Source of the DNA: Comamonas badia DSM 17552
GTDB taxonomy: Bacteria; Pseudomonadota; Gammaproteobacteria; Burkholderiales; Burkholderiaceae_C
DNA length: 64,000 nt
Reading direction: 5' to 3'
Assembly (NCBI RefSeq): GCF_000484635.1
Contig: NZ_AXVM01000006.1
Span: forward strand, 124,001 to 188,000
This document shows, in pieces, positions 11,403 to 25,642 of the stretch. How positions within the stretch are numbered: the stretch's first letter is position 1; the number at the start of each line of letters is the position of its first letter. Under the pieces are notes generated by a model that saw only the letters and a list, made by a program, of their open reading frames with translations, had not been told where the DNA came from and searched no databases. A program made the translations under genes and the position numbers.

Positions 11403-12495
11403 CATTGCTCCCCCACTGTGGCTGCTGCTGGAGCTGACGTACAGCTGCCCACTGCACTGCGTGTTCTGCTTCAATCCCACCAACTACACCGGCGTGGGCA
11501 AGGAGCTGACGACCGCGCAGTGGGTGGACGTGATGCGCCAGGCGCGCGCCCTGGGCGCAGCGCAGATCGGGTTCTCTGGCGGCGAGCCGATGAACCGCGA
11601 CGATCTGGAAGAGCTGGTGCGAGAAGCGCATGCCTTGGGCTTCTACACCAACCTGCTGACTTCCGGCGTCGGGATGACGGCCGAGCGCGCCGGCCGGCTC
11701 AAGGCCGCAGGGCTAGACCACGTGCAGCTCTCATTTCAGGACAGCACGCGCCAACTCAATGACTTCCTGAGCCACACCAAGACTTTCGAGCTCAAGAGAA
11801 AAGTGGCGCGCATCATCAAGGACCACGACTGGCCCATGGTGATGAACTGCGTGCTGCACCGCCACAACCTGCCGCATGTCGACAAGATCATCGACATGGC
11901 GCTGGAGATGGGGGCCGAATACCTCGAGCTGGCCAACACCCAGTACTACGGCTGGGCCTGGGTCAACCGCGACCAGCTCATGCCCACCCGCGAGCAATTG
12001 CAGGAAGCCGAAACCGTCGTGCAGCGCTACCGCGAAAAAATCGGCAACCGCTGCCGTATCCTGTTCGTCGTGCCTGATTACTTCGAAAACCGCCCCAAGC
12101 CCTGCATGAATGGCTGGGGTTCGGTGTTTCTGAGCGTTGCGCCTGACGGCGTGGCCATGCCCTGCCACAACGCACGCGAGCTGCCCGGCCTGAACCTTCC
12201 CAGGGTCACGGAGCAATCCATTTCCGACATTTGGTACCAAAGCTCTGCCTTCAACGCCTTCCGTGGTGAATCCTGGATGCAGGAGCCCTGCCGCAGCTGC
12301 GACGAGCGGCACAAGGATTTTGGCGGCTGCCGCTGCCAGGCCTGGCTGCTGACGGGCGATGCCGCGGCAACCGACCCGGTCTGCGACAAATCGCCGCACC
12401 ATGGCAAGGTCCTGGACATCGTCGAGAAGGCACGCCATCGCAAGGATGCGCACATCGTCTTTCGTACCGACGCAGAGTCGCGCGCCCGGTCATGA
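11386..12495 (+). CDS. pqqE: PqqA peptide cyclase PqqE (radical SAM, SPASM)
   Basis: 369 aa. The radical-SAM cluster motif CPLHCVFC (Cys21, 25, 28) follows PLWLLLELTYS. The C-terminal SPASM region carries several cysteines (CMNGWGS, PCHNAREL, EPCRSCDERHKDFGGCRC) for auxiliary Fe-S clusters. It forms the carbon-carbon bond between Glu16 and Tyr20 of PqqA. The start is GTG 11386, within pqqD and behind GAGGAAGG. Its stop overlaps the next gene by four bases, tying a cytochrome c into the pqq operon. Confidence 0.96.
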   Translation: MAGSTDIAPPLWLLLELTYSCPLHCVFCFNPTNYTGVGKELTTAQWVDVMRQARALGAAQIGFSGGEPMNRDDLEELVREAHALGFYTNLLTSGVGMTAERAGRLKAAGLDHVQLSFQDSTRQLNDFLSHTKTFELKRKVARIIKDHDWPMVMNCVLHRHNLPHVDKIIDMALEMGAEYLELANTQYYGWAWVNRDQLMPTREQLQEAETVVQRYREKIGNRCRILFVVPDYFENRPKPCMNGWGSVFLSVAPDGVAMPCHNARELPGLNLPRVTEQSISDIWYQSSAFNAFRGESWMQEPCRSCDERHKDFGGCRCQAWLLTGDAAATDPVCDKSPHHGKVLDIVEKARHRKDAHIVFRTDAESRARS

Positions 12496-12827
12496 CGCAC
12501 GCACGGCTGGCATTCCTGGCGCCGCTGGCACTCGCCGCCTGCTCCAACACACCGCCGGGGTCAGGGGTCGCGGCCCTTACCCCATTGAACGACACCGCCG
12601 TGCTCGCAGCCAACTGCACCACCTGCCACGGGGTGGAAGGGCGCGGCAGTGGAGATATTCCCGCCCTGCGCGGTCGCCCGGCCACGCAGCTTGCCGAGCG
12701 CATGCTGGCCTTCAAGGACCACCGGGTCACCGGCGCCAGCGCCACCGTGATGCCCCTGATGATGCAGGGCTACAGCGCCACGCAGATCGAGGCGCTGGCG
12801 CAATGGTTTGCAAAGGAAACGCCATGA
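12492..12827 (+). CDS. c-type cytochrome lipoprotein, partner of the adjacent flavoprotein
   Basis: 111 aa. A lipobox LALAAC at residues 12-17 predicts a lipoprotein. One heme site CTTCH (42-46) and a MPLMMQGY stretch offering the sixth Met ligand make it a small class I cytochrome, like FccA halves. It overlaps pqqE (ATGA) and the flavoprotein (ATGA), so the three are translationally coupled. The pair resembles flavocytochrome c sulfide dehydrogenase. Whether it oxidises sulfide or serves alcohol oxidation here is not known. Confidence 0.82.
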   Translation: MTHARLAFLAPLALAACSNTPPGSGVAALTPLNDTAVLAANCTTCHGVEGRGSGDIPALRGRPATQLAERMLAFKDHRVTGASATVMPLMMQGYSATQIEALAQWFAKETP

Positions 12828-14098
12828 TGCAGCGCCGCACCTGGCTGGCTGGCTCCCTGTGCGCCGCGGCAACCGTCGGTGCGCCCACACTGGCGCGGGC
12901 ACAGGCGGGCGCGGCACGCGTGGTGGTGGTGGGCGGAGGCTTCGGTGGCGCCACCGTCGCACGCTACCTGCGCCAGTACGCACCGAGCATCCACGTCACT
13001 CTGGTCGAACCCGCCACGCGCTTCTATACCTGCCCCTATTCCAATCTGTTCCTCGGCGGCTTGCGCACCTGGGAGAGCCTTGGGCACGGCTACGACGGAC
13101 TGCATGCCGCGGGGGTGCAAATAGTGCATGCCACGGCACAAGACGTGGATGCCCATGCGCATACGCTCAAGTTGTCGGATGGAAGCACCCTGGCATGGGA
13201 CAAGCTCGTCCTCTCGCCCGGCGTAGATATGCGCTGGAACGCGATTCAGGGCTACGACGCGGCTGCCGCCGAAAAAGCGCCCCACGCCTGGAAAGCCGGC
13301 CCGCAAACGCTGCTGCTGCGCCGGCAGATGGAGGCCATGCCGGATGGCGGCACCTTCATCATGGCGATCCCCGACACGCCCTACCGCTGCCCGCCCGGGC
13401 CGTATGAGCGCGCAGCCATGGTGGCGCACTACTTCAAACAACACAAGCCGCGCAGCAAGATTCTGCTGCTGGACGCCAAGAACAATTTTTCCAAGAAGGC
13501 TCTTTTCCTGCAGGGCTGGAAAGCACTCTACGGCGACATGATCGAATGGGTGAGCCTGGCGGAAGACGGTCAGGTCGTGCGCGTTGATCCCGCCACGCTG
13601 GAGGTGGAAACCTTCTTCGGCGGGCGCCACAAGGCTGACGTGCTCAACGTCATTCCGCCGCAGAAGGCAGGTTTCATCGCCGGCCGCGCCGGTGTCACGG
13701 ACCGCAGCGGCTGGGTACCTGTCAAGGGCGAGACCTTTGAATCCGTGCAGGTGCCCGGCGTCCACGTCGTCGGTGATGCAAGCCTTGCGGGGCCCATGCC
13801 CAAATCCGGGTTCTCAGCCAACAACCAGGGCAAGCTGGTAGCAGCCGTCGTTGCCGCAGAGCTGCTGGGCAAGCCGGTGCCCACGGCGTGGTACGCCAAC
13901 ACCTGCTACAGCCTGATCGGCCCAGGCTACGGAATAGCAGTATCGGGCGTTTACGAGGCCAGGGAGGGGCGGGTGGTGGACATCCACGGCTCGAACGCCA
14001 CCAGCCCGCTGGATGCGGACTTGGCATTCAGGGCGGCCGAGGCGCGCTATGGAGCCTCCTGGTACGCAGCCATCAGCAAGGACATCTGGGATCGCTGA
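12824..14098 (+). CDS. FAD-dependent flavocytochrome c sulfide dehydrogenase-like flavoprotein (FccB/SoxF-like)
   Basis: 424 aa. The first 27 residues (MMQRRTWLAG...PTLARA) are a signal peptide, so the protein is periplasmic. A Rossmann motif VVVVGGGFGGATVARYLRQY binds FAD. Cys70 in FYTCPYSN corresponds to the cysteine that carries covalent FAD in FccB, and Cys189 (YRCPPGPYERAA) plus Cys361 (NTCYSLIGPGYG) match the redox-active pair. All key FccB cysteines are therefore kept. The C-terminal FCSD-binding segment is present. The start overlaps the cytochrome stop and has an AAAGGA box; an ORF extension to 12359 in this frame runs through pqqE and is not real. Confidence 0.87.
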   Translation: MMQRRTWLAGSLCAAATVGAPTLARAQAGAARVVVVGGGFGGATVARYLRQYAPSIHVTLVEPATRFYTCPYSNLFLGGLRTWESLGHGYDGLHAAGVQIVHATAQDVDAHAHTLKLSDGSTLAWDKLVLSPGVDMRWNAIQGYDAAAAEKAPHAWKAGPQTLLLRRQMEAMPDGGTFIMAIPDTPYRCPPGPYERAAMVAHYFKQHKPRSKILLLDAKNNFSKKALFLQGWKALYGDMIEWVSLAEDGQVVRVDPATLEVETFFGGRHKADVLNVIPPQKAGFIAGRAGVTDRSGWVPVKGETFESVQVPGVHVVGDASLAGPMPKSGFSANNQGKLVAAVVAAELLGKPVPTAWYANTCYSLIGPGYGIAVSGVYEAREGRVVDIHGSNATSPLDADLAFRAAEARYGASWYAAISKDIWDR

Positions 14099-14137: not shown

Positions 14138-16426
14138 TTACTTCCACTCGTAACGCAGCCCCACCACAATGCTGCGGCCCGCTCCAGGTGCGAGGAAGCG
14201 TGCAGAAGACATGTCATCTCCCGGACTCACGATGACTCCGCCCGGAAAGGCATCCTCGCTCCCCACCACGTAGGTGGCATAGCGCTTGTCGAGCAGATTG
14301 TTCACCCGTACATAGGCTTTCCAGCGCTCGTTGAACTGCCAGCTGGCACGGGCGTTGAATAGACTGAAACCTGCCACATTGCCAAGCTTGGGGCGCGTAC
14401 CGCTCTCGTTTCCTGCAGCCACCGACGAGCCCACCATGAGCCAATCACCGCCAATGACGACACGCGGGGCGGCACGCCAATCTGCGGAGAGCTTGAACAC
14501 ATGGCGCGGCAGCGCAGCCATGCGCGTGCCCGGATGGAAGGCGTTTGGATTCTTGGCCGTACTCAGTGGCCCGAACAACACACCGCTGCTTTGGTAGGTG
14601 GCATCAAGATAGCCATAGCTTGCGCGCCAATCCCAGTCGCCACGGCGCACGCGGGCGCTCAGTTCAAAACCCTGGCGCCGTGTCTTGCCGATGTTGTCGA
14701 AGAAGCCTGCTTGCGAAATCCCTGCACGCATGAAGGCGATATCGTCGTTGTTGACCGAGCGGAAGAAGGCCCCCGAGATCTCCACACCCTCCATCGGGCG
14801 AGCACGGGCGCCAATCTCCAGGGTGCGGGTCACCACCTGCTTGAGGTAGGGATCGGCCTGCAGGCCCACCGGCAAGGTACAGGGATTGGCCGGGTCAGCG
14901 CAGCCCAGCTCAAGCGCTGACGGCATGCGCGTACCTTGCGACCAGTTGGCAAAGCCAATCAAGGACTTGCCGAAGGCATGCGTGATGCCGATCGCGGGGT
15001 TCAATTTGCTGTAGCTGAAGCTCTCGCGCTCATAATCGTCGGGATGGCCGAGGTCATTGCGCACGCGGCTGCGGTTCCAGCGCGCCGAAATATCAAGACG
15101 GGTCTGGTCCGACAGCTTGATGGTGTCCGCGGCAAACAGGCTGAACCGGTTGCTGCTTCCGCGCAAGGACACTTCGTGCTCCAGTGCTTCGCCGGCCAGT
15201 GGCCGGGTGATGCGATTGGCATCAAAAACCGCCTCCTGGTCAAACTGGTCATAACGCGACGTGCTGCGCGCCACCTCGGCACCCAAGGCAAACTTGTGCG
15301 CGCCCGCCTCGTGCGTCCATTGCACGGTTGCACCGACCTCTGAATATTTCGCCCTGCTGTCATTGAACACAGCGTTGTTGTGGATGTAACCGGGATCGCT
15401 CGGATTCACGCATTGCGGCGCGCCGGAATCCTCGCAGTCCTCCACCCACTCTTCCCAATCTTCGTTCACATCGCCATTGCTTCCGTGCCGCCTGGATGAA
15501 CGGTACCAGGCCACCGCGGCGATCTGGTCACGCGGGGAAAGCGCATGGCTCAGCTGGAAATTGAGCAGATCGCCACGATTCCACGTCTGATCGTAGAAGG
15601 TATATCCGGCACGCGGATTGATGTCGTAGAGGCTCTGGTTCAGCAGGCCATTGCCGATCAGATTGCTGCGTCCATAGGTGTAGCTCAGCGACCAGGCGGT
15701 ATCACCCATGTCGCGGCCCAGCTTGAGAAACAGGTTGCCCAAATTGCCGGGCGAGCGCTCGCGCCAGCCTTTTTCGTCAAACCAGGTGCCTGCGACGTAA
15801 CCGTGCCAGCCCTCGCTCCAACGCGCGCCATGTCCGAACTCGACGCGTTTGCGGCCAAAACTGCCGATGGAGGCATCGATTTCGGTGCCTGGGTGCGTGA
15901 GACCGGATTTGGTGCCCAATACCAGGGCCCCGCCCAGCGTGTTCAGGCCGTAAAGGGGGTTCGATCCCGGGATCAGGGCCATGTCGGAGATCGCCATTTC
16001 GGGCACCAGATCCCAGTCCATCACATCGCCCAGCGGCTGGTTCACGCGCACGCCGTCGATGTAGACCGAGAGGCCCTGGGGAGAACCCAGCAGCGGCGAC
16101 AGGCGGTGGCCACGGTAGCTCAGGTCAATCTGGTAAGGGCTGCCCTGCACATCGGCCGTCGATACGCCGGGAATGCTGCGGTTGAGGAAATCTCCCAGAT
16201 TGACAGCGCCGGAACGCTCGATGTCCGCATCGGTCGCCGTCTGAACGTTGCCAGGGTATTCATCCTTGGGCACATCCAGACCGGGCAGCGGCGTCTGCTG
16301 AATCACATTCACCTGCGGCAGCGCCCGCACCTTGTCCATGTCCACCTGCTGCGCCAGCGCCAGCATCGGACATGCCGACGCCAGCACCAGCCAGCTCTTC
16401 GTCGGCTTCAAACGGTATTTCGCCAT
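14138..16426 (-). CDS. TonB-dependent outer membrane receptor in the PQQ/ADH locus
   Basis: 762 aa. Signal peptide (SWLVLASACPMLALAQQ), plug domain (NLGDFLNRSIPGVSTADVQG, LSVYIDGVRVNQPLGDVMDW, MALIPGSNPLYGLNTLGGAL) and a barrel ending VGLRYEWK. No STN domain. An extracellular-loop candidate at about residues 316-335 is strongly acidic (NEDWEEWVEDCEDSG) and cysteine-flanked. The start ATG 16426 follows AAGGAG with six-base spacing; a second ATG five codons upstream is inferior. Being just downstream of the dehydrogenase and a cytochrome, and in line with TonB receptors used for lanthanide uptake in methylotrophs, it may import a metal chelate for the dehydrogenase; ligand is unproven. Confidence 0.87.
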   Translation of the reverse strand: MAKYRLKPTKSWLVLASACPMLALAQQVDMDKVRALPQVNVIQQTPLPGLDVPKDEYPGNVQTATDADIERSGAVNLGDFLNRSIPGVSTADVQGSPYQIDLSYRGHRLSPLLGSPQGLSVYIDGVRVNQPLGDVMDWDLVPEMAISDMALIPGSNPLYGLNTLGGALVLGTKSGLTHPGTEIDASIGSFGRKRVEFGHGARWSEGWHGYVAGTWFDEKGWRERSPGNLGNLFLKLGRDMGDTAWSLSYTYGRSNLIGNGLLNQSLYDINPRAGYTFYDQTWNRGDLLNFQLSHALSPRDQIAAVAWYRSSRRHGSNGDVNEDWEEWVEDCEDSGAPQCVNPSDPGYIHNNAVFNDSRAKYSEVGATVQWTHEAGAHKFALGAEVARSTSRYDQFDQEAVFDANRITRPLAGEALEHEVSLRGSSNRFSLFAADTIKLSDQTRLDISARWNRSRVRNDLGHPDDYERESFSYSKLNPAIGITHAFGKSLIGFANWSQGTRMPSALELGCADPANPCTLPVGLQADPYLKQVVTRTLEIGARARPMEGVEISGAFFRSVNNDDIAFMRAGISQAGFFDNIGKTRRQGFELSARVRRGDWDWRASYGYLDATYQSSGVLFGPLSTAKNPNAFHPGTRMAALPRHVFKLSADWRAAPRVVIGGDWLMVGSSVAAGNESGTRPKLGNVAGFSLFNARASWQFNERWKAYVRVNNLLDKRYATYVVGSEDAFPGGVIVSPGDDMSSARFLAPGAGRSIVVGLRYEWK

Positions 16427-16514
16427 GCTTCGCTCCTTCACACAATGGCGTTGATAAAGATAACGAAATACCGCTTGCCCACGACCGATTCCGGCTGCCG
16501 ACGCGGTCCTTCGT

Positions 16515-16841
16515 TCAGGGCTTGGCGGCCAGAATCCACTCTGCCAGGGTCTTCAGGTCATCGGCGCTCAGGCTCGGGTGTGCCGGCATGGGTATGCGCC
16601 CCCACTTCCCCTTGGACCCATATTGGATGGACTGTGCAATGGAGGCGGCCGCGTCGCTTTCGCCCGCATATTTTTCCGCCACCTTGACGTAGGCCGGGCC
16701 CACAACCTTTTCAGTCATGGCATGACAGCTCAGACAGCCATTGGCCTTGGCCAGCTCCTGCGCCGCGGCTGCATCCACAGCCCACGCAGGCGCCACAGCA
16801 CCCGCAGTCATCACCAACATTAAAAACAGGGCACAACGCAT
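16515..16841 (-). CDS. periplasmic class I cytochrome c (c551/c8-type)
   Basis: 108 aa. Signal peptide to about residue 21 (GAVAPAWA), heme site CLSCH (36-40), AMTEKVVGPAYVKVAEKY, and the methionine ligand in GRIPMPAHPSLS. This is the compact cytochrome c551/c8 plan, about 85 residues mature. It lies between the quinoprotein dehydrogenase and the TonB receptor in the same direction, and probably carries electrons from the dehydrogenase to a terminal oxidase. A GAGG box precedes the ATG by six bases. A terminator between it and the dehydrogenase may lower its expression. Confidence 0.9.
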   Translation of the reverse strand: MRCALFLMLVMTAGAVAPAWAVDAAAAQELAKANGCLSCHAMTEKVVGPAYVKVAEKYAGESDAAASIAQSIQYGSKGKWGRIPMPAHPSLSADDLKTLAEWILAAKP

Positions 16842-16915: not shown

Positions 16916-18637
16916 TTACTTCATGAGTTTGAAGGTCCAGACCGTGCCGCCCTGTTCGAGGAAGTTGACCTTCTTGGCCACTTCACCACCCCACAGGGGC
17001 ACAGCACCGCCCCAACCAGAGACCACGCTGAGGTATTGCTCGCCATCCTGCGTCCAGGTGATGGGAGGCGCAACGACGCCCGAACCGGTCTGGAATTTCC
17101 ACACTTCCTTGCCGGTCTTCGCATCAGCCGCCTTCAGATAGCCCTCGGGCGTGCCCCAGAACACCAGGTCACCGGCCACCAGCACACCTCCCCAGAGCGG
17201 GGCTTCGTTCTTGATTTCCCAGGCGATCTTGCCGGTCTTGGGATCGATCGCGCGCAGCGAGCCGATGTAATCGTCATACAAGGGCTTGATCGTGAAACCC
17301 GCACCAAGGAAGGCGGCGCCCTTCTTGTAAGTGATGGGTTCGTTCCAGATTTCCATGCCCCATTCGTTGCTAGGCACATAGAACAGGCCGGTCTTGGGGC
17401 TGTACGCCATGGGCATCTGGTTCTTGCCACCCAGGAAGCCGGGGGCTGCGAACACGGCCTTGCCCTTCTTGCCATCGGCATCAGGCGCGGTCGGGTCGCC
17501 CGGGCGGTTCTCCGGCACGAAGTTCGGACGGCCGGTCTTCAGATCGACGCCAGTGGCCCAAGTCTGCTTGGTCACGAACGGGAAAGCATTCTGGAGTTTG
17601 CCGGTCTTCGCGTCGATCACATAGAAGAAGCCATTGCGGTCCGCCTTGGCGCCCATGCGCTTGCCGTCCATGTCGAAAGTGATGAACTCGTTCACGCCGT
17701 CGAAATCCCAGCCGTCATTGGGCGTACCCTGGTAGTGCCAGGCGATCTTGCCGGTCTTGACGTTGATGGCCACCGTCGACGATGTGAACAGGTTGTCCCC
17801 CTGGCGCACATGGCTGTTCCATGGGCCAGGGTTGCTGGTACCGAAATAGGCCAGGCCCGTGGTCGCGTCGTAACTGCCACCCATCCAGGTGGAACCGCCG
17901 CCGGTCTTCCACGTCTCGCCCGGCCAGGTGGCGTTGAGCGTGCCGGAAATGCCGTTCTCCTTGCCATTGAGGTAGCCCATGTGACCTTCGACCGTCGGGC
18001 GTGTCCAGACCATCTTGCCGGTCTTGGCGTCGCGCGCCTGCACTTCGCCGACCACGCCGAATTCCCCCCCCGAATTGCCGGTGATGACCAGGCCGTCGAC
18101 CACCAGCGGAGCGGCCGTGTAGCTGTAACCGGCCTGGTAATCGGCGATCTTGTCTTTCCAGACGATCTTGCCGGTGTCCTGATCCAGGGCAATGATCTGC
18201 GCATCCAGCGTGCCGAAGATCACGAGGTTGTCGTAGAGCGCGGCGCCGCGATTGACCACATCGCAGCAGGGCATGATGCCTTCGGGCAGGCGATGCTCGT
18301 ACTTCCAGAGCTTCTTGCCGGTCTTGGCGTCGACCGCAAAGATGCGCGAATACGAGGCCGTGACGAACATCTTGCCGTTGTAGACCAGCGGCTGGCTTTC
18401 CTGGCCGCGCTGCTTTTCACCGCCAAAGGACATGGCCCACACCGGGGTCAGGCGATTGATGTCCTTTTCGTTGATGTCCGTCAGCGGGGAATAGCGCTGG
18501 CCCTGCGTGCCGAGGCCCCAGGTCAGCACATCGCCCGGGGTCGTGGCGTCGTCGGCCAGCATCTTGTCGGTCACGCCGGCCGTGGCAACCTGTGCAGCAG
18601 CCATCATCACCAGCAGACTCAATAACTTGCGTTTCAT
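16916..18637 (-). CDS. PQQ-dependent type I alcohol dehydrogenase, lanthanide-type active site
   Basis: 573 aa with a 20-residue signal peptide. An eight-bladed propeller quinoprotein without a C-terminal heme domain, so it needs an external cytochrome. The vicinal Cys124-Cys125 (MPCCDVV) forms the disulfide typical of methanol/ethanol dehydrogenases. Metal and active-site residues: Glu192 (GGEFG), Asn269 (TSNPGPWN), catalytic Asp311 and, two residues on, Asp313 in [12 protein letters not shown]; Arg334 in DRNGFF. An Asp at that +2 position marks XoxF and PedH lanthanide enzymes, whereas calcium enzymes have Ala or Ser. It oxidises primary alcohols in the periplasm, exact range unknown. A GGAGA box precedes the ATG and a consensus sigma54 promoter lies about 100 bp upstream. 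Confidence 0.95.
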
Positions 18638-18878: not shown

Positions 18879-19841
18879 TCACTTGCCTGGGCCGTCAAGC
18901 GCTGCCCTCTCGTAGCGCGGGTACCAATGCACCAGGGTGCGTTGCCATTCGGCTGGCTGCGCGGCCCATTTGGCAAAGCGTTCCGGAACCGGCTGGCGCA
19001 TCAGTTCGCTCAGGTCCACGCCGCTGGCCGCGCTTTGCCGCAGCGTCGTGGTAACCCATTGAAGCCAGTCCTGTGTCTGCGCAATGCCCTCCATCCCACG
19101 CGGCACGGGGCCATGGCTGGGAACCAGTTGCGTGAACTCGCCCGCCTTGCGCCACTGCTCCAGCGTGGCAAGGCTTTCCTGCCATGTCGCGGCGTCGGCA
19201 TGCGGAGTGGTGGGGACACGATCGGCAAAGACCAGACCTCCCGCAAACAGCACGCCGGTGGTTTTGTCCAGCACCACGAGGTCGTCGTCGGTATGGCCCT
19301 TGAGCTGGCGCAGCACCAGCTGGTGCTTGCCCAACGTGATCGTCTGCGGCTCTATCGCCTCGCGCGCCGGGGTCGATTCGGTGCCCTTCATCCAATCGCC
19401 GCACAGGCGGTAGAGGTTGTCGGCATAAGCGCCGCCTTCGGCGCGCATGCCGTTGATCGTTCCCTGGAGCGCCTGGGTGGGCACGTCGCTCCATGCCTGA
19501 TTGCCGAAGAAATAGTCCGGGTGCAGATTCAGATTGAGGATCCGGCGCACCGGTTCGGCCGTCACCTTGGCGATGGCCTTGCGCTGCTGCTCGCCATAAA
19601 GGCGCGAAGCGCCCGTGTTGATGACCACCACGCCGTCACCGGTTGCAATGAAGGCGGTGTTGATGATATTGCAGCCATTGGCAGGCAATAGATCGGCCAC
19701 CGCGCCTTCGATCACCCAGGTGCCCTCGGCAATCTGGCGCGGCTGAAGGTCGTAATTCAGCGTCTTCATATCCGGCGCAGACTGGGCCAGCGCACCCGCG
19801 GCGCACAGCAGGCCCAGCGCGCATAGAACCGATGACTTCAT
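18879..19841 (-). CDS. quinoprotein relay system metallo-beta-lactamase-fold protein (SoxH-like)
   Basis: 320 aa with a signal peptide (LCALGLLCAAGALAQ). The MBL fold is recognisable (GDGVVVINTGASRLYGEQQ, LKGHTDDDLVVLD, LVPSHGPVPRG). The usual zinc motif HxHxDH reads NLHPDYFFGN, so the first His is Asn and the last His is Tyr, while other ligands (GH, SHG) remain. This suits the SoxH-related proteins that accompany PQQ dehydrogenases and a SoxYZ-like carrier. It is the last gene of the five-gene operon and overlaps the SoxYZ-like gene by four bases. Enzymatic activity is uncertain given the altered motif. Confidence 0.82.
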   Translation of the reverse strand: MKSSVLCALGLLCAAGALAQSAPDMKTLNYDLQPRQIAEGTWVIEGAVADLLPANGCNIINTAFIATGDGVVVINTGASRLYGEQQRKAIAKVTAEPVRRILNLNLHPDYFFGNQAWSDVPTQALQGTINGMRAEGGAYADNLYRLCGDWMKGTESTPAREAIEPQTITLGKHQLVLRQLKGHTDDDLVVLDKTTGVLFAGGLVFADRVPTTPHADAATWQESLATLEQWRKAGEFTQLVPSHGPVPRGMEGIAQTQDWLQWVTTTLRQSAASGVDLSELMRQPVPERFAKWAAQPAEWQRTLVHWYPRYERAALDGPGK

Positions 19842-20638
19842 GCCCTGACCTCCACCTCGATACGGTTGCCGCCGTTGTCCCGCCCCTTGAGGGTGAAATT
19901 TCCGGGGCCTTCCTTGGGCATTTCAAAGGTGATCAAGGGGTTTTCGGAAATGGGTTCGTACAGCCCCATGCGCCACCACGCCTGCCCCGTGCTGTCGAGG
20001 AGTTCCAGGCGTTCGAGATGAAAAGCGGGTATGCCGGCCACCAGCCCGGTATCCATGGGGTGCATGATCTGCACCCGCAAACGCCGGTTGTTCGGGCCGT
20101 CAAGCACGTTGGAAAAGAACTTGGCATGCACCTGATTGAGCGTCTTGCTCCACGAGCCATCGGCACGGGTAACGCCAGGCACCGTGCAGCCACCGCCAGC
20201 AGCCTGCGCGAACGAGCCGCCGACATGCCACATACCGTCCTTGGTCTGCACCAATGCGCGGACGGGCGACCCCTGCTCCAGCTTGATGCGAAAGGCCAGC
20301 AGCGGCTCTGCCCGCAAGGGCTCGAACGTCAGGATTTCATGAATCGGGTTGCGATCCGCCATCACCAGCATGCTCTTGATGCCGCCACCCACGCCGCCGA
20401 GCGCGCGCGCATCCACCTGCAGCGGGACGTTCATCGCATCATCGGCAAATGCCGGTGTGCGCACGACCACCTTGTCGGTGAACTGCATGGGCGCATCGCC
20501 CATGTATTTCTTGCGCAGCACGGGCCATTGCATTGACCCCAGCGGATCCCCGCCGGTATGGTCCTCTTCGGCCGCCCACGCCGCGGCCCCCATGCCGGCG
20601 AGCACGCCTGCCCCAATGATCTGTCTGCGTCCCAGCAT
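19838..20638 (-). CDS. quinoprotein dehydrogenase-associated fused SoxYZ-like carrier
   Basis: 266 aa. After a short signal segment (IIGAGVLAGMGAAAWAAEE), an SoxY-like half ends near the Gly-rich cysteine stretch AAGGGCTVPG, which mirrors the SoxY swinging-arm cysteine but internally. The second half is SoxZ-like (VQIMHPMDTGLVAG, FHLERLELLD, ISENPLITFEM). In sulfur oxidisers SoxYZ carries the sulfur substrate on that Cys; fused forms linked to PQQ dehydrogenases have no proven role. ATG 20638 starts two bases after the permease stop. The longer frame to 20857 overlaps the permease and lacks a signal. Confidence 0.85.
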   Translation of the reverse strand: MLGRRQIIGAGVLAGMGAAAWAAEEDHTGGDPLGSMQWPVLRKKYMGDAPMQFTDKVVVRTPAFADDAMNVPLQVDARALGGVGGGIKSMLVMADRNPIHEILTFEPLRAEPLLAFRIKLEQGSPVRALVQTKDGMWHVGGSFAQAAGGGCTVPGVTRADGSWSKTLNQVHAKFFSNVLDGPNNRRLRVQIMHPMDTGLVAGIPAFHLERLELLDSTGQAWWRMGLYEPISENPLITFEMPKEGPGNFTLKGRDNGGNRIEVEVRA

Positions 20639-20640
20639 GA

Positions 20641-21483
20641 TCAGCCACCCCCTTTTTGACGAATGAAGCCGCGCTGCGGGTCGTAGCCCCAGAGCGCGAG
20701 CAGGAAAAACACCACGCCACAGACCGCCACCACCGCCCAGGCGAGCGGATTGGCCTGGCCGTTCATCGCAAAGCGCATGGCCTCGACGGCATAAGTGAAC
20801 GGGTTCACCTGGGCCACGTTGAAAAGCCACAGCGCGCCCGACTCCTCCAGCTTCCACAGGGGATAGAGCGCCGAGCTGATGAAAAACATCGGAAAGATCA
20901 CGAAATTCATGGCGCCGGCAAAATTTTCCAGCTGCTTGACATAGACCGACAGCATCAGCCCCAGCGCCGCCAGCATGGCCGCGCCCAGCACCATGGCCGC
21001 GAGCGCCGCTGGCAGATAGGTGAGCGGCACCTCCACGCCGAAGGCCAGCGCGATCAGCAGGAAGACCAGCATCTGCAGGATGGAAAGCACGGTGCTGGCC
21101 AGCAGCTTGAACCCCAGCAGCCAGCTGCGCGCCAGCGGCGCGGTGAGCAGCAGCCGCATCACACCCATTTCACGGTCGTATACCATGGAAAGCGAGCTCT
21201 GCATGCCGTTGAACAGCGCCACCATGCCGAGCAGCCCGGGGACCATGTAGACCTTGTATTCGATATAGGTCTCGTACGGCGGGACGATCGCAACGCCAAA
21301 GACGTTGTGAAAGCCTGCGGAAAATACCAAAAACCATAGCAATGGGCGCACGAGGGCAGAGATCAAACGCGTAGGTTGGCGCAGAAAACGCCAGATCTCG
21401 CGCCCCACCACGGCACGCAAGGCGCGCAAGAGGTGCACGGGCAGGCCGACCGGAACCCGCGCCGTCATGGTCGCTGCTTGCAT
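20641..21483 (-). CDS. ABC-2 type permease, alcohol/PQQ-associated (PedC-like)
   Basis: 280 aa. About six membrane segments (for example LISALVRPLLWFLVFSAGF, YMVPGLLGMVALFNGMQSSL, FVIFPMFFISSALYPLW), the ABC-2 transporter plan. Matches the permease of the conserved ABC cassette found near PQQ alcohol dehydrogenases (PedC in Pseudomonas); in P. putida that cassette has been linked to lanthanide-dependent growth, according to my memory of the literature. It overlaps the binding-protein gene by 19 bp. The matching ATPase is at 24884 on the other strand. Confidence 0.88.
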   Translation of the reverse strand: MQAATMTARVPVGLPVHLLRALRAVVGREIWRFLRQPTRLISALVRPLLWFLVFSAGFHNVFGVAIVPPYETYIEYKVYMVPGLLGMVALFNGMQSSLSMVYDREMGVMRLLLTAPLARSWLLGFKLLASTVLSILQMLVFLLIALAFGVEVPLTYLPAALAAMVLGAAMLAALGLMLSVYVKQLENFAGAMNFVIFPMFFISSALYPLWKLEESGALWLFNVAQVNPFTYAVEAMRFAMNGQANPLAWAVVAVCGVVFFLLALWGYDPQRGFIRQKGGG

Positions 21484-22658
21484 TGGCTCTCCTGTTCATC
21501 CACGCCCAAGGTATCCAGCACCTCCCTGGGATGCAACACGCCATCCACCGGAGCCGTGGCGATGACACCGTCGCCGTCGCTGAGCAGCACGGGCTGGCGC
21601 AGCTGCCCATCCCACGGCCGGAACGACAGGCGCTGGCCCTTGAAGCCATCCAGAAACACGGCGGCTGTGCGCAGCTTGCGCAACTGCTCGGCCACGCCGG
21701 CCTTGGGATCGTCCGCAAGCACGGTGGCAATCGCCTTGCCAGCCATCCAGGCAGCCCAATCCTGGCCCTGCATCAAACGCTGGAACTGCTTGCGAAAGCG
21801 CCGCGTGAGCTGCGGACCGCCATAGCGCTCCCATTGCGGGTGCCAGGCCAGGGACGTGAGGCCCGAGGCCCCCACCACCGGGCGCGGCCACTGGGTGGCG
21901 TACGGCACGGTGCGGGCGAATTCGCCATCGCTGTCCATCACGGCCACCACGTCGTGCTCCTTGTCGCTCGTAAGCAGCCGCACGTTCGCCAGATCGCGCT
22001 CACGCGGGTCGCCACTGAGCTTGAAGGGCTTGGTCTGCACGATCTTGAGGCCATAGCGCTTGGCCGATCGGGTAAAGGCCTGCTGCATCAGCGCATCGCC
22101 CGGACGGGGGCCCTGCAGCATCAGCACCTTGCGCCAGTTGCGCGCGGCGAGGTACTGGGCGATGGCATCCATCTCCATCTGGCGGCTGGGAAAGGTGTGC
22201 AGCAATACCGCGGAACAGGCTTCAGCGCGCAGGCTGTCTTCGGGAAGACCGGTGTTGAACACGATGACGTCGCCCAGCGCGGCGGGCGCCGTACGTACCA
22301 GTTCGCGCAGCGCCGGCGCCGGCAGATCAGCCACCACGTAATGCACCTCGGCCTTCTTGAGCTCCGCCAGCGCCTTGGGCAGATCGGCAGCCGTGGGCAG
22401 CACCACGTCCTTGACGGACAGCGCCAGATCGGATTCCCCCAGCTCGAATTCCGCATCCTTCGCGGCCAGCTGCACCGCTTCCACGGCGCGCCCCTGCGGC
22501 TGGCCGGGATAGCCCTGCTCCATGCGCCGGCTGGCGTAGCGCGGATCGTCCGCGACGGAAATGACCGCCACACCGACCGTGCGCGCGGCCCAGGCCGACA
22601 GCGGCGCCCCCAGCAGCCACCAGAGGCCTACCGCCAGAGCCAGCAGCGCACGCTTCAT
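21465..22658 (-). CDS. PQQ-catabolism-associated ABC transporter substrate-binding-like protein
   Basis: 397 aa. Signal peptide (LLALAVGLWWLLGAPLSAWA) then a periplasmic type I binding-protein fold of the branched-chain amino acid class (VGVAVISVADDPRY, GDVIVFNTGLPEDSLRAEAC, VAVMDSDGEFARTVPYATQW). It belongs to the group regularly found with PQQ dehydrogenase ABC cassettes. Ligand unknown. Overlaps the propeller gene by four bases upstream and the permease gene by 19 bases downstream. Confidence 0.85.
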   Translation of the reverse strand: MKRALLALAVGLWWLLGAPLSAWAARTVGVAVISVADDPRYASRRMEQGYPGQPQGRAVEAVQLAAKDAEFELGESDLALSVKDVVLPTAADLPKALAELKKAEVHYVVADLPAPALRELVRTAPAALGDVIVFNTGLPEDSLRAEACSAVLLHTFPSRQMEMDAIAQYLAARNWRKVLMLQGPRPGDALMQQAFTRSAKRYGLKIVQTKPFKLSGDPRERDLANVRLLTSDKEHDVVAVMDSDGEFARTVPYATQWPRPVVGASGLTSLAWHPQWERYGGPQLTRRFRKQFQRLMQGQDWAAWMAGKAIATVLADDPKAGVAEQLRKLRTAAVFLDGFKGQRLSFRPWDGQLRQPVLLSDGDGVIATAPVDGVLHPREVLDTLGVDEQESQCKQRP

Positions 22659-23665
22659 GGCTCAATCAGCACGCTGTGCGGCACCCGGCCCGCGGGCACG
22701 GTGCGCAGGGCCTTGGCGGCTGCGGTATCGATGAGGGTCATGTCGTCAGACAGGCCGTTGGTCACGTACAGGGTCTTGCCGTCCGGGTGCAGGCCCAGGC
22801 CCCACGCGCGCTTGCCCACCAGCACCTGGTGCTGCACCTTTCTGCTCGCCGCATCCACCTGTGCGACGCGGTTGGCGCGGCCCAGCGCCACCCAGACGGT
22901 CTTGCCGTCCTGCGTGGCCACCATGCCCACCGGCGTGATGTCGGAAGCACGCAAGCCGTCCACGGCGAACTTGATGCTGGCCTTGACGGTGTGGTTCGCG
23001 GTATCGATGACCGTCACCGAGGCATCGAGCTCATTCGTCACCCACAGCTCTGCCCCGCCGGCCACCAGCACCAGGCGGCGCGGGCGCTTGCCCACCTTGA
23101 TGGACTTGAGCACCTTTTTCTGGGCCAGATCGATGTAGTGGACCGAATTCGCCACTTCGGACGTGACGTAGGCGAACTTGCCGTCGGGCGTGACCAGCAC
23201 GCCCTCGGGCTCACCGCCCGTCTTGACGGTGAACAGCGGCTTCTTGCTCGCCAGGTCGTAGGCGGCCAGTTCGTTGTCGTCCTCGATCGAGACATAGGCG
23301 GTCTTGCCGTCAGGACTGAGATCGAAGATTTCCGGGCTCTCGCCCACCGGCACGGTATCGACCAGCTTGGCGCTGGCAACGTCGACGATGCCCAGCTGGT
23401 CGCTGTCGCCACAGCTCACCACGATCTTGCTGTGCTGTTCGGTGAACATCATGGCGCGCGGGCGCTTGCACACTTCAATGGCCGACAGGCGGTCGCCCCT
23501 GGTGTTGAAGACCTGCAGCACGTTGTCCTTCTCGCTCGACACGTAGACCCGGTCAGGCACCGGCGCTGCCTGCGCCGACGCCACGATTGCCATGCCCGCC
23601 AGGGCCACCCAGCAGGACCGCCCCCCTCGCCCGCTCCACACGCTGTTTCGCACCGCCCGCACCAT
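22655..23665 (-). CDS. PQQ-associated YVTN-family beta-propeller protein
   Basis: 336 aa, exported (signal near residues 15-35). Repeated YVTN-type blades are obvious: DRVYVSSEKDNVLQVFNT, GKTAYVSIEDDNELAAYDL, GKFAYVTSEVANSVHYIDL, GAELWVTNELDASVTVIDT and GKTLYVTNGLSDDMTLIDT. This seven-bladed-type propeller accompanies quinoprotein ABC cassettes; role unproven. First gene of the leftward five-gene operon, with an AGGAGA box before the ATG and a sigma54-like promoter at 23723-23738. Confidence 0.9.
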   Translation of the reverse strand: MVRAVRNSVWSGRGGRSCWVALAGMAIVASAQAAPVPDRVYVSSEKDNVLQVFNTRGDRLSAIEVCKRPRAMMFTEQHSKIVVSCGDSDQLGIVDVASAKLVDTVPVGESPEIFDLSPDGKTAYVSIEDDNELAAYDLASKKPLFTVKTGGEPEGVLVTPDGKFAYVTSEVANSVHYIDLAQKKVLKSIKVGKRPRRLVLVAGGAELWVTNELDASVTVIDTANHTVKASIKFAVDGLRASDITPVGMVATQDGKTVWVALGRANRVAQVDAASRKVQHQVLVGKRAWGLGLHPDGKTLYVTNGLSDDMTLIDTAAAKALRTVPAGRVPHSVLIEP

Positions 23666-23738: not shown

Positions 23739-23860
23739 CGAATACAGGAATGAAATTTGCCTGCATCGCTTGGCCAAACGCTGCCAAAAGCAGCTGATTG
23801 CGTTGATTTCACAGGATTTTTCATGCGAGACCCAGTTTCCGGTCCAGGTTGCGCGAGTTC

Positions 23861-23885
23861 CATCTGTTCCAGCAAGGAACAGATG
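23861..23885. promoter_or_regulatory. perfect 10-bp inverted repeat, putative activator site
   Basis: CATCTGTTCC-AGCAA-GGAACAGATG covers the ribosome-binding site and ATG of the Bug-family gene (ATG 23883) and lies about 125-160 bp upstream of the minus-strand sigma54 promoter. It contains TGTTCC-N5-GGAACA, nearly repeated at 18835-18851. It could be an enhancer for the leftward operon, a repressor of the rightward gene, or an mRNA hairpin hiding its start. Confidence 0.55.
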
Positions 23886-24887
23886 AACACCGGACGGCGG
23901 CAATGGTTGCGCGGCGCGGCGGCTGCCTCGCTCGCCGCTGCAGTACCTTTGGCAGCACGCGCGCAAGGGTCTGCCCACTGGCCCGCCAAGCCACTGCAAC
24001 TCATCGTTCCCTGGCCCGCCGGCGGCGCAACCGACCTGACGCTGCGCGTGCTGTGCGAGGAGGCCAAGCCCTTCCTCGGCGAAACCATCGTGATCATCAA
24101 CAAGCCCGGTGCCGCCGGCACGCAGGTGGCCAATCTGCTCAAACAGGCCGAACCCGACGGCTACACCATCGGCCAGATGCCGATCACCGTGTACCGCTAT
24201 GCGCTGATGAACAAGGTGGCGTGGAGCCCACTGAAGGATTTCAGCCCCATCCTGCAGGTGGCGGGAACGACTTTCGGGCTGCTGGTGCCGGCCGACAGCG
24301 CGTGGAAAACCTTTGGCGACATGCTGCAGTGGGCCAAGGCGCACCAGGGCGAGCTGCTGCTGGGCTCCACCGGCATAGGCACCACCGCGCATCTGGCGAT
24401 GGAAGAAATCCTGCTTCAGAACCAGATCAAATATGTGCACGTGCCCTACAAGGGCACGACCGACCAGATGCTGGCGATTGCCACCAGGCAGATCATGGCG
24501 GGCGTGAATTCCACCGGGTTCACGCCCTGGCTTGAGCAGGGCAAGATGCGCCTGCTGGCGGTATTCAGCGCGGCGCGCAACCCGCGCTGGCCCGAGGTAC
24601 CCACCATGCGCGAACTGGGCTACCCGAATGCCGTGTACACATCGCCCTGGGGCATCGCGGCGCCGGCAGGCACGCCCCCCGAAATCATCCAGAAGCTGCA
24701 ATCCGCGCTGGCGCGCGCGGTGCACACGCCGCGCCACCTGCAGGAGCTGGCCCGGTTCGAGCAGGATCTGGAGTATCTTGACACCGCCGATTACGCCAAG
24801 GCGCTGCGCGCCAGCGTGGCCCACGAATGCAAACTGCTCGACCGCATGCACCTGCTGAGCCAAACCTGCCCGGTACCGACGACATGA
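23883..24887 (+). CDS. Bug/TctC family periplasmic tricarboxylate-type binding protein
   Basis: 334 aa. A twin-arginine-like signal GRRQWLRGAAAASLAAAVPL is followed by the TctC fold (LIVPWPAGGATDLTLRVLCE, VNNKPGAAG-like IINKPGAAGTQVANLLKQ, GTTAHLAMEEI, VPYKGTTDQM). Such proteins are very abundant in Burkholderiales and bind small carboxylates. The start has AAGGA seven bases upstream; the frame extends to 23757 without signal features. Its stop overlaps the ABC ATPase start (ATGA), an odd partnership because TctC proteins normally work with TctAB or as orphans. Confidence 0.9.
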   Translation: MNTGRRQWLRGAAAASLAAAVPLAARAQGSAHWPAKPLQLIVPWPAGGATDLTLRVLCEEAKPFLGETIVIINKPGAAGTQVANLLKQAEPDGYTIGQMPITVYRYALMNKVAWSPLKDFSPILQVAGTTFGLLVPADSAWKTFGDMLQWAKAHQGELLLGSTGIGTTAHLAMEEILLQNQIKYVHVPYKGTTDQMLAIATRQIMAGVNSTGFTPWLEQGKMRLLAVFSAARNPRWPEVPTMRELGYPNAVYTSPWGIAAPAGTPPEIIQKLQSALARAVHTPRHLQELARFEQDLEYLDTADYAKALRASVAHECKLLDRMHLLSQTCPVPTT

Positions 24888-25642
24888 CCACCGAACACCC
24901 CCTGCTGCTGCAGGCACGCGGACTGAAAAAATCCTATGGCAGCAAGCCGGCCCTCAAAGGCGTGGACCTGCAGCTGCGCGCCGGCGAAATGCTGGCACTG
25001 CTGGGTCCCAACGGCGCAGGCAAGTCAACGCTGCTGCAACTGCTGACCGGCCTGTTCACGCCCGACGCGGGCGAGATCGAGGTGCTGGGCCAGGACATGC
25101 GCCGCCACCCGGCGCAGGCGCTGGCCGGCCTGGGCGTGGTGTTCCAGCAAAGCGCGCTGGACATGGACCTGAGCGTGATCTCCAACCTGCTGTTTCACAC
25201 CGATCTGCATGGCCTGCCGCGCGCCGTGGCGCGCGAGCGCATCGCCCGCCACCTGCCGGCGCTGGGTCTTTCGGGTCAGGAAAAGGCCCAGGTGCGCAAC
25301 CTGTCGGGCGGCAATCGGCGCAAGGTGGAGCTGGTGCGCGCCCTGCTGCACGCGCCGCGCGTGCTGCTGATGGACGAGGCCACCGTGGGCCTGGACCCCG
25401 CGTCGCGCCAGCAACTGCTCGCCCATGTGAATCACCTGTGCCACAGCGAAGGCATAGGCGTGCTCTGGACCACGCATCTGATCGAAGAGGTGCAGAACGC
25501 GGACCGGCTGATGCTGCTGCACCAGGGCAAGGCGCACTTTGATGGTTCGATTGCCGACTTCATGGCCAAGGCGGGCGAAGGCAGCGATTTCAAGACCGAA
25601 ATCCTGCGCCAGCTGAGCGGCCCGGCCTCGGCCAACCGCTGA
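24884..25642 (+). CDS. PQQ-associated ABC transporter ATP-binding protein
   Basis: 252 aa. Walker A GPNGAGKST, signature LSGGNRRKVELVRALLHAPR, Walker B VLLMDEATVGLD and switch His in WTTHLIEE are all present. It is of the ABC-2 exporter class, and is the expected ATPase for the permease at 20641, although encoded on the opposite strand. Start ATG 24884 overlaps the TctC stop; the in-frame upstream extension to 24827 lies inside that gene. Confidence 0.9.
   Translation: MTTEHPLLLQARGLKKSYGSKPALKGVDLQLRAGEMLALLGPNGAGKSTLLQLLTGLFTPDAGEIEVLGQDMRRHPAQALAGLGVVFQQSALDMDLSVISNLLFHTDLHGLPRAVARERIARHLPALGLSGQEKAQVRNLSGGNRRKVELVRALLHAPRVLLMDEATVGLDPASRQQLLAHVNHLCHSEGIGVLWTTHLIEEVQNADRLMLLHQGKAHFDGSIADFMAKAGEGSDFKTEILRQLSGPASANR

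Follow-up and report, generated by a model that had tools for sequence, protein, structure and literature searches.

An altered metal site in the SoxH-like partner of a SoxYZ-like carrier beside a PQQ-dependent alcohol dehydrogenase

In methylotrophy and in Pseudomonas alcohol metabolism, the role of the SoxYZ-like carrier and SoxH-like partner that accompany lanthanide-dependent alcohol dehydrogenases is still an open question. In Comamonas badia DSM 17552 the partner, a protein of the metallo-beta-lactamase (MBL) fold, carries LNLNLHPDYFFGN at the place of HxHPDH in its relatives, which raises the question of what such a protein can do for the carrier and for the dehydrogenase. We addressed this in a window of 64,000 nucleotides (contig NZ_AXVM01000006.1, positions 124,001 to 188,000), to which the coordinates below refer unless a locus is named, and in related loci. 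The module has already been named and discussed in the literature (PMC12997753; PMC11237559), and the family assignment of the pair is ordinary and present in RefSeq; what is new is the remodelled metal site of the partner. The clade with this site, a parallel in Azospirillum and a group of degenerate paralogues are all undescribed in the literature that we found on the carrier, on PP_2677/2678 and on the module.

Family searches over genomes recovered 12 genomes with the altered form (N-type) and more than 30 with an intact site (H-type), while a scan of named genomes with the patterns NGCNIINT and HPDYF[FL]GN yielded 80 N-type loci. The 12 genomes from the family searches are free of the bias of pattern selection, and the same signature is found in them.

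The locus and its carrier

The carrier (19838–20638, minus strand, 266 aa) and the partner (18879–19841, minus strand, 320 aa) are encoded by open reading frames that overlap by four bases and lie within the known gene set of a PQQ-dependent alcohol dehydrogenase (PQQ-ADH), with pqq genes also among the neighbours. The stop of a PedC-type ABC permease gene (20641–21483, minus strand; TIGR03861, 350 bits) is found just upstream of the carrier start, in the same gene run. Further minus-strand genes encode the substrate-binding protein of the PQQ-ADH ABC system (21465–22658; TIGR03863, 422 bits) and a beta-propeller protein associated with PQQ-dependent catabolism (22655–23665; TIGR03866, 289 bits), and the ATPase of the ABC system is encoded on the divergent plus strand (24827–25642; TIGR03864, 311 bits). 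On the other side of the pair are a PQQ-dependent dehydrogenase of the methanol/ethanol family (16916–18637, minus strand; TIGR03075, 758 bits) and a small c-type cytochrome (16515–16841, minus strand; PF00034, haem motif CLSCH), which recurs in 50 of the 54 long related loci and is the likely electron acceptor of the dehydrogenase. The dehydrogenase contains the motif WDFDG and an adjacent cysteine pair (CC124–125) with no other cysteine. A second Asp two residues past the catalytic one (WD[FY]D) is what we take to be the mark of a lanthanide-dependent PQQ-ADH, and by it the enzyme is predicted to belong to that class, as is the nearest ADH in 63 of the 66 readable loci (DFD or DYD) among the 80 named N-type loci.

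Two further genes are variably present. A TonB-dependent receptor (14138–16441, minus strand), whose gene separates those of the flavocytochrome from that of the dehydrogenase and which is found in 18 of the 54 long loci, could import lanthanide or PQQ. A substrate-binding-like protein, presumably of the tripartite tricarboxylate type, is encoded divergently from the beta-propeller gene (23757–24887, plus strand) and recurs in 39 of 54; the literature that we read gave no role for it in the PQQ-ADH system. A promoter and terminator scan returned no more sites than in shuffled sequence.

Both members of the pair score well above the cut-offs of their families. The carrier matches TIGR04557 (quinoprotein dehydrogenase-associated SoxYZ-like carrier) with 211.4 bits (cut-off 140) over model positions 1–226 of 226, and the partner matches TIGR04558 (‘quinoprotein relay system zinc metallohydrolase 1’) with 412.3 bits (cut-off 300) over its full length, so that the pair is almost certainly the known quinoprotein-dehydrogenase accessory module. 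Behind a twin-arginine-like N-terminus, the carrier combines halves that match SoxY (PF13501, 4e-25) and SoxZ (PF08770, 3e-7) in one chain, with the cysteine arm (AAGGGCTVPG, the Cys being residue 151) internal to it; the internal GGGC arm and the SoxZ half had been noted in the original prediction. Its AlphaFold2 (AF2) model (pLDDT 87.5) comprises two beta domains joined via this arm, residues 153–157 of which fall below a pLDDT of 50. The first domain matches SoxY (VIA, Z about 12), with carrier residues 36–151 aligned to SoxY 1–110. Cys110 is the sulfur-binding cysteine of SoxY (PMC11237559), and it is here that the VIA alignment ends, opposite carrier residue 151. The SoxZ half returned immunoglobulin-like folds only (VIA, Z 6–8), with no SoxZ chain among the matches listed. 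The carrier is not a true SoxY or SoxZ, as it scores 49 bits against 125 for TIGR04488 and 32 against 76 for TIGR04490, and has an internal arm in place of a C-terminal GGCGG. The GGGC arm is present in all 80 aligned N-type carriers and the same arm is found in H-type carriers; a single residue outside the arm (R96) is the only fixed difference between the two sets.

The original prediction also drew a flavocytochrome pair into the relay, and this part was not supported. The monohaem cytochrome and the FCSD flavoprotein, which has two cysteines (189 and 361) in FCSD-like contexts, are encoded on the opposite strand (12492–14098, plus), directly after pqqE and beyond the dehydrogenase. They are conserved near the carrier in only 10 of the 80 named loci, all of them Comamonadaceae-type neighbours of the window, and the C. 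badia genome holds two further FCSD homologues. We therefore rejected the flavocytochrome as a core of the module, and with it an FCSD-coupled Sox-like relay. Two other candidate links were set aside. A rhodanese-like CXXCW protein (TIGR03865) exceeds its cut-off in none of 11 N-type and 11 of 19 H-type genomes, a distribution that lineage may explain because most H-type Burkholderiales also lack it. True SoxY is found above its cut-off in 8 of the 11 N-type genomes and in 7 of the 19 H-type ones, a comparison too confounded by lineage to be used as a link to true Sox.

The partner metal site and its clade

Comparison of the metal ligands across the family confirmed the motif change and extended it. 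N105 and Y110 are invariant in all 88 N-type sequences, which excludes a chance mismatch, and they form part of a signature (C57, N105, H107, D109, Y110, C147, H183, G202, S242, H243) that is found in every one of the 88. The N-type pattern reads NxHPDY...GH...GG...PSHG, together with NGCNIIN and YRLCGDWM, where the 30 H-type sequences compared have an intact HxHPDH...GH...GD...PGHG. Beyond the motif noted originally, Asp221 is lost (G202), the second-shell Asp is replaced (N75), and two cysteines, C57 and C147, are gained. These are the only cysteines in the aligned mature columns of N-type proteins, whereas 24 of the 30 H-type sequences have none there. H107, D109, H183 and H243 are retained, class B positions 116, 121 and 221 are changed, and no replacement for the zinc site is visible elsewhere in the partner sequence. 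With N105, Y110 and G202 standing for H, H and D, the partner departs from the ligand set of TIGR04558 (HxHxDH, H196, D221, H263), and the name ‘zinc metallohydrolase’ may be wrong for it; a likely misannotation is thereby flagged across the whole N-type clade. The literature that we found contains no experiment on an N-type protein and no report of zinc binding or hydrolase activity for the family.

The substitutions are concentrated at and around the metal-ligand positions. Ten positions are fixed and different between the 88 N-type and 30 H-type sequences (57, 60, 75, 104, 105, 110, 139, 147, 202 and 242). Of the seven canonical ligand positions, three fall within this set (hypergeometric P 9e-4), and five members of the set coincide with a ligand position or adjoin one (P about 7e-5). 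Comparison with close relatives gives a dN/dS of 0.09–0.24 for the partner, which is purifying selection. Together, the sequence comparisons argue that the metal site has very probably been remodelled under constraint rather than having decayed.

Across the sequences compared, the change of motif characterises a whole clade and is no peculiarity of the C. badia genome. Nearly all of the 80 named loci belong to Burkholderiales and Rhodocyclaceae (Comamonas, Acidovorax, Hydrogenophaga, Limnohabitans, Cupriavidus, Ralstonia, Polaromonas and others), and the Burkholderiales sequences examined include no intermediates between the two signatures. N-type proteins form one clade nested inside the H-type (support 100; 94–98 with the trait columns removed). 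The carrier lies beside the partner in both kinds of locus. Each N-type genome contains one match at E <= 1e-60, from which it follows that the N-type form takes the place of the H-type and is no spare copy. One record titled as a Chitinophaga pinensis MAG (L107) contains a typical Burkholderiales locus and is probably a mislabelled or mixed bin.

A plasmid search identified Azospirillum proteins of about 50% identity that share the altered site (NLHPDY...GG...NHG, with Q75) but have G57 and V147, and a class-wide search added two more proteins of this type. They too retain H107, D109, H183 and H243, and the carrier/partner synteny is likewise annotated on an Azospirillum lipoferum plasmid. 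Because the N/Y/G change occurs here without either cysteine, the cysteines appear as an add-on and not as a simple replacement for the lost ligands; on the same observation we dropped the idea of a single switch to thiol chemistry in which metal loss and the cysteine pair arose together. The Azospirillum proteins fall apart from the Burkholderiales clade when the trait columns are removed, but one shared origin of the N/Y/G change is neither shown nor rejected (AU p 0.49); it may have arisen once or by convergence.

Structural models and possible functions

Modelled with AF2 (58 sequences, pLDDT 91.7), the partner has a full MBL fold. Its nearest solved fold is 8d2z (Z 29.9, 269 residues aligned, 2.3 Å), followed by chlorothalonil dehalogenase 6uxu (Z 28.1, 277 aligned, 2.8 Å) and then by two mono-zinc enzymes of subclass B2, Sfh-I and CphA (VIA, Z 26–27, 220–224 aligned, 2.2–2.4 Å). 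B2 enzymes have Asn116, His118 and His196, a mono-zinc site formed by Asp120, Cys221 and His263, and a long alpha3 helix that flanks the groove of the active site (PMC4463611). In the model, a predicted helix (residues 126–151) that carries C147 is placed where the B2 alpha3 sits, and N105, H107 and D109 fall on N116, H118 and D120 of Sfh-I in a weak alignment of the two sequences. The partner has Asn116, H118, D120, H196 and H263 in common with CphA and Sfh-I, but has Gly for Cys221, Tyr and not Arg at 121, and 17% identity. With five of the six ligands, and 19.2 bits against a cut-off of 240, it is not a subclass B2 metallo-beta-lactamase; the resemblance is a lead only and carries no beta-lactamase claim.

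On sequence grounds, we consider the chances about even that the N-type partner still binds one metal. In the mechanism that we favour, tentatively and as a whole at somewhat less than an even chance, both proteins would be periplasmic. Cys151 on the flexible carrier arm would capture reactive sulfur (sulfane, thiosulfate-derived or similar) that might otherwise attack PQQ, and the MBL partner would dock the arm and then discharge or transfer the bound group. For this the partner would use a single-metal site formed by H107, D109, H183 and H243 in place of the ancestral di-metal site, and the Cys57/Cys147 pair, added in Burkholderiales, would probably form a disulfide or act as a further thiol station. 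That the module protects the PQQ-ADH from reactive sulfur is possible, and we hold it with yet more reserve. Published proposals for the module comprise disulfide formation, cofactor stabilisation and the shielding of PQQ from sulfur species (PMC12997753; PMC11237559). Two points speak against the mechanism. Disruptants of the H-type module in P. putida show little phenotype on alcohols in the absence of lanthanides (PMC12997753), and 3 of the 11 N-type genomes examined have no true SoxY above the cut-off, so that thiosulfate oxidation by the organism itself is not the shared reason.

The invariance of C57 and C147, and the loss of H116, H121 and D221 in the same clade, might instead point to a thiol relay in which an MBL protein devoid of metal exchanges a Cys57–Cys147 dithiol or disulfide with Cys151 of the carrier. 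We regard this as unlikely: Azospirillum relatives show the same change of the metal site without either cysteine, and the four remaining ligands are kept in all N-type and Azospirillum sequences, which argues against a metal-free fold.

Less likely again is that the module makes or restores the disulfide ring formed by the adjacent cysteines of the PQQ-ADH. This has been put forward in the literature (PMC12997753) and agrees with a dehydrogenase whose only cysteines are CC124–125, but the ring also occurs in ADHs of the same genome that are unlinked to the module (L013/L016, L012/L018) and in organisms without it (PMC12997753). The original prediction had named both cofactor and disulfide handling for the dehydrogenase: the former remains plausible as cofactor protection (PMC12997753; PMC11237559), while the latter is weakened because adjacent-Cys rings are found in ADHs without the module.

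We place at the same low level an acyl or aldehyde relay, in which the aldehyde product of the ADH would be held on Cys151 as a thiohemiacetal or thioester and released by the partner as a glyoxalase-II-like thioesterase. MBL-fold thioesterases are established chemistry and the carrier cysteine is on a flexible arm, but the hydrolytic di-metal site is the very part that is dismantled in the N-type clade. A single-metal site of the preferred kind could also be B2-like, with the missing 221 ligand supplied by a thiolate, either the carrier's Cys151 in trans or, in Burkholderiales, Cys57 or Cys147. This is improbable; if true, the metal site would be finished by the cargo-bearing arm of the carrier, for which the literature that we found has no precedent among SoxYZ partners. 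It is equally improbable that the partner is functionless or a mere scaffold for the carrier, as the three lost ligand positions and the unclassified degenerate paralogues of related loci might suggest, given strong purifying selection, a ten-residue signature without exception among 88 sequences and identical substitutions in Azospirillum.

Nature thus offers a series of mutants, from the intact H-type through N/Y/G without cysteines (Azospirillum) to N/Y/G with the cysteine pair (Burkholderiales). With the di-metal site replaced and the carrier and locus constant, the role of the metal becomes directly testable via partner swaps.

Comparison with known systems

Many related loci contain degenerate MBL paralogues (L147:10827–11837, L139:17669–18766, L110:17969–19069, L143:16193–17176 and others) with HxHxE(H/N), an RCxxCL motif and GG for D221, mostly without GHG. 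They score under the TIGR04558 and TIGR04559 cut-offs and retain the Zn1-type histidines, whereas N-type proteins retain D120 and H263. We rejected such a protein as an obligate partner of the N-type form because it is absent from the C. badia genome and from G300, G301 and G310. Two loci (L058 and L062) have two adjacent MBL-like open reading frames, of which one keeps its metal site and the other is degenerate (GHVEFL), which suggests that this pairing recurs in this branch of the superfamily.

The C. badia genome provides an internal control in the form of a true Sox locus, which encodes true SoxY and SoxZ together with a SoxH whose site is intact. This SoxH (L017:3060–4025) belongs to the same superfamily and likewise stands in a SoxYZ context, but has an intact site (THYHADH...GD...GHG) and scores about 70 bits to the window partner. 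A second PQQ-ADH (HDAWDYDG, YACCDV) is found about 12 kb from this sox cluster (C2:381000–398300; L016, L017).

The carrier shares a fused SoxY–SoxZ chain, an internal cysteine arm and linkage to PQQ-ADH and soxH with the SoxYZ fusion clades S2 and S4 (PMC11237559), and R96 in carriers of N-type loci is the sole difference that we found from these and from TIGR04557. H-type members of TIGR04558 (P. putida PP_2678 and Azospirillum AZOLI_RS20050) occupy the same slot, after the SoxYZ-like carrier and before the PQQ-ADH, but keep HxHPDH, GD and GHG where the clade of the window has NxHPDY, GG and SHG and two cysteines.
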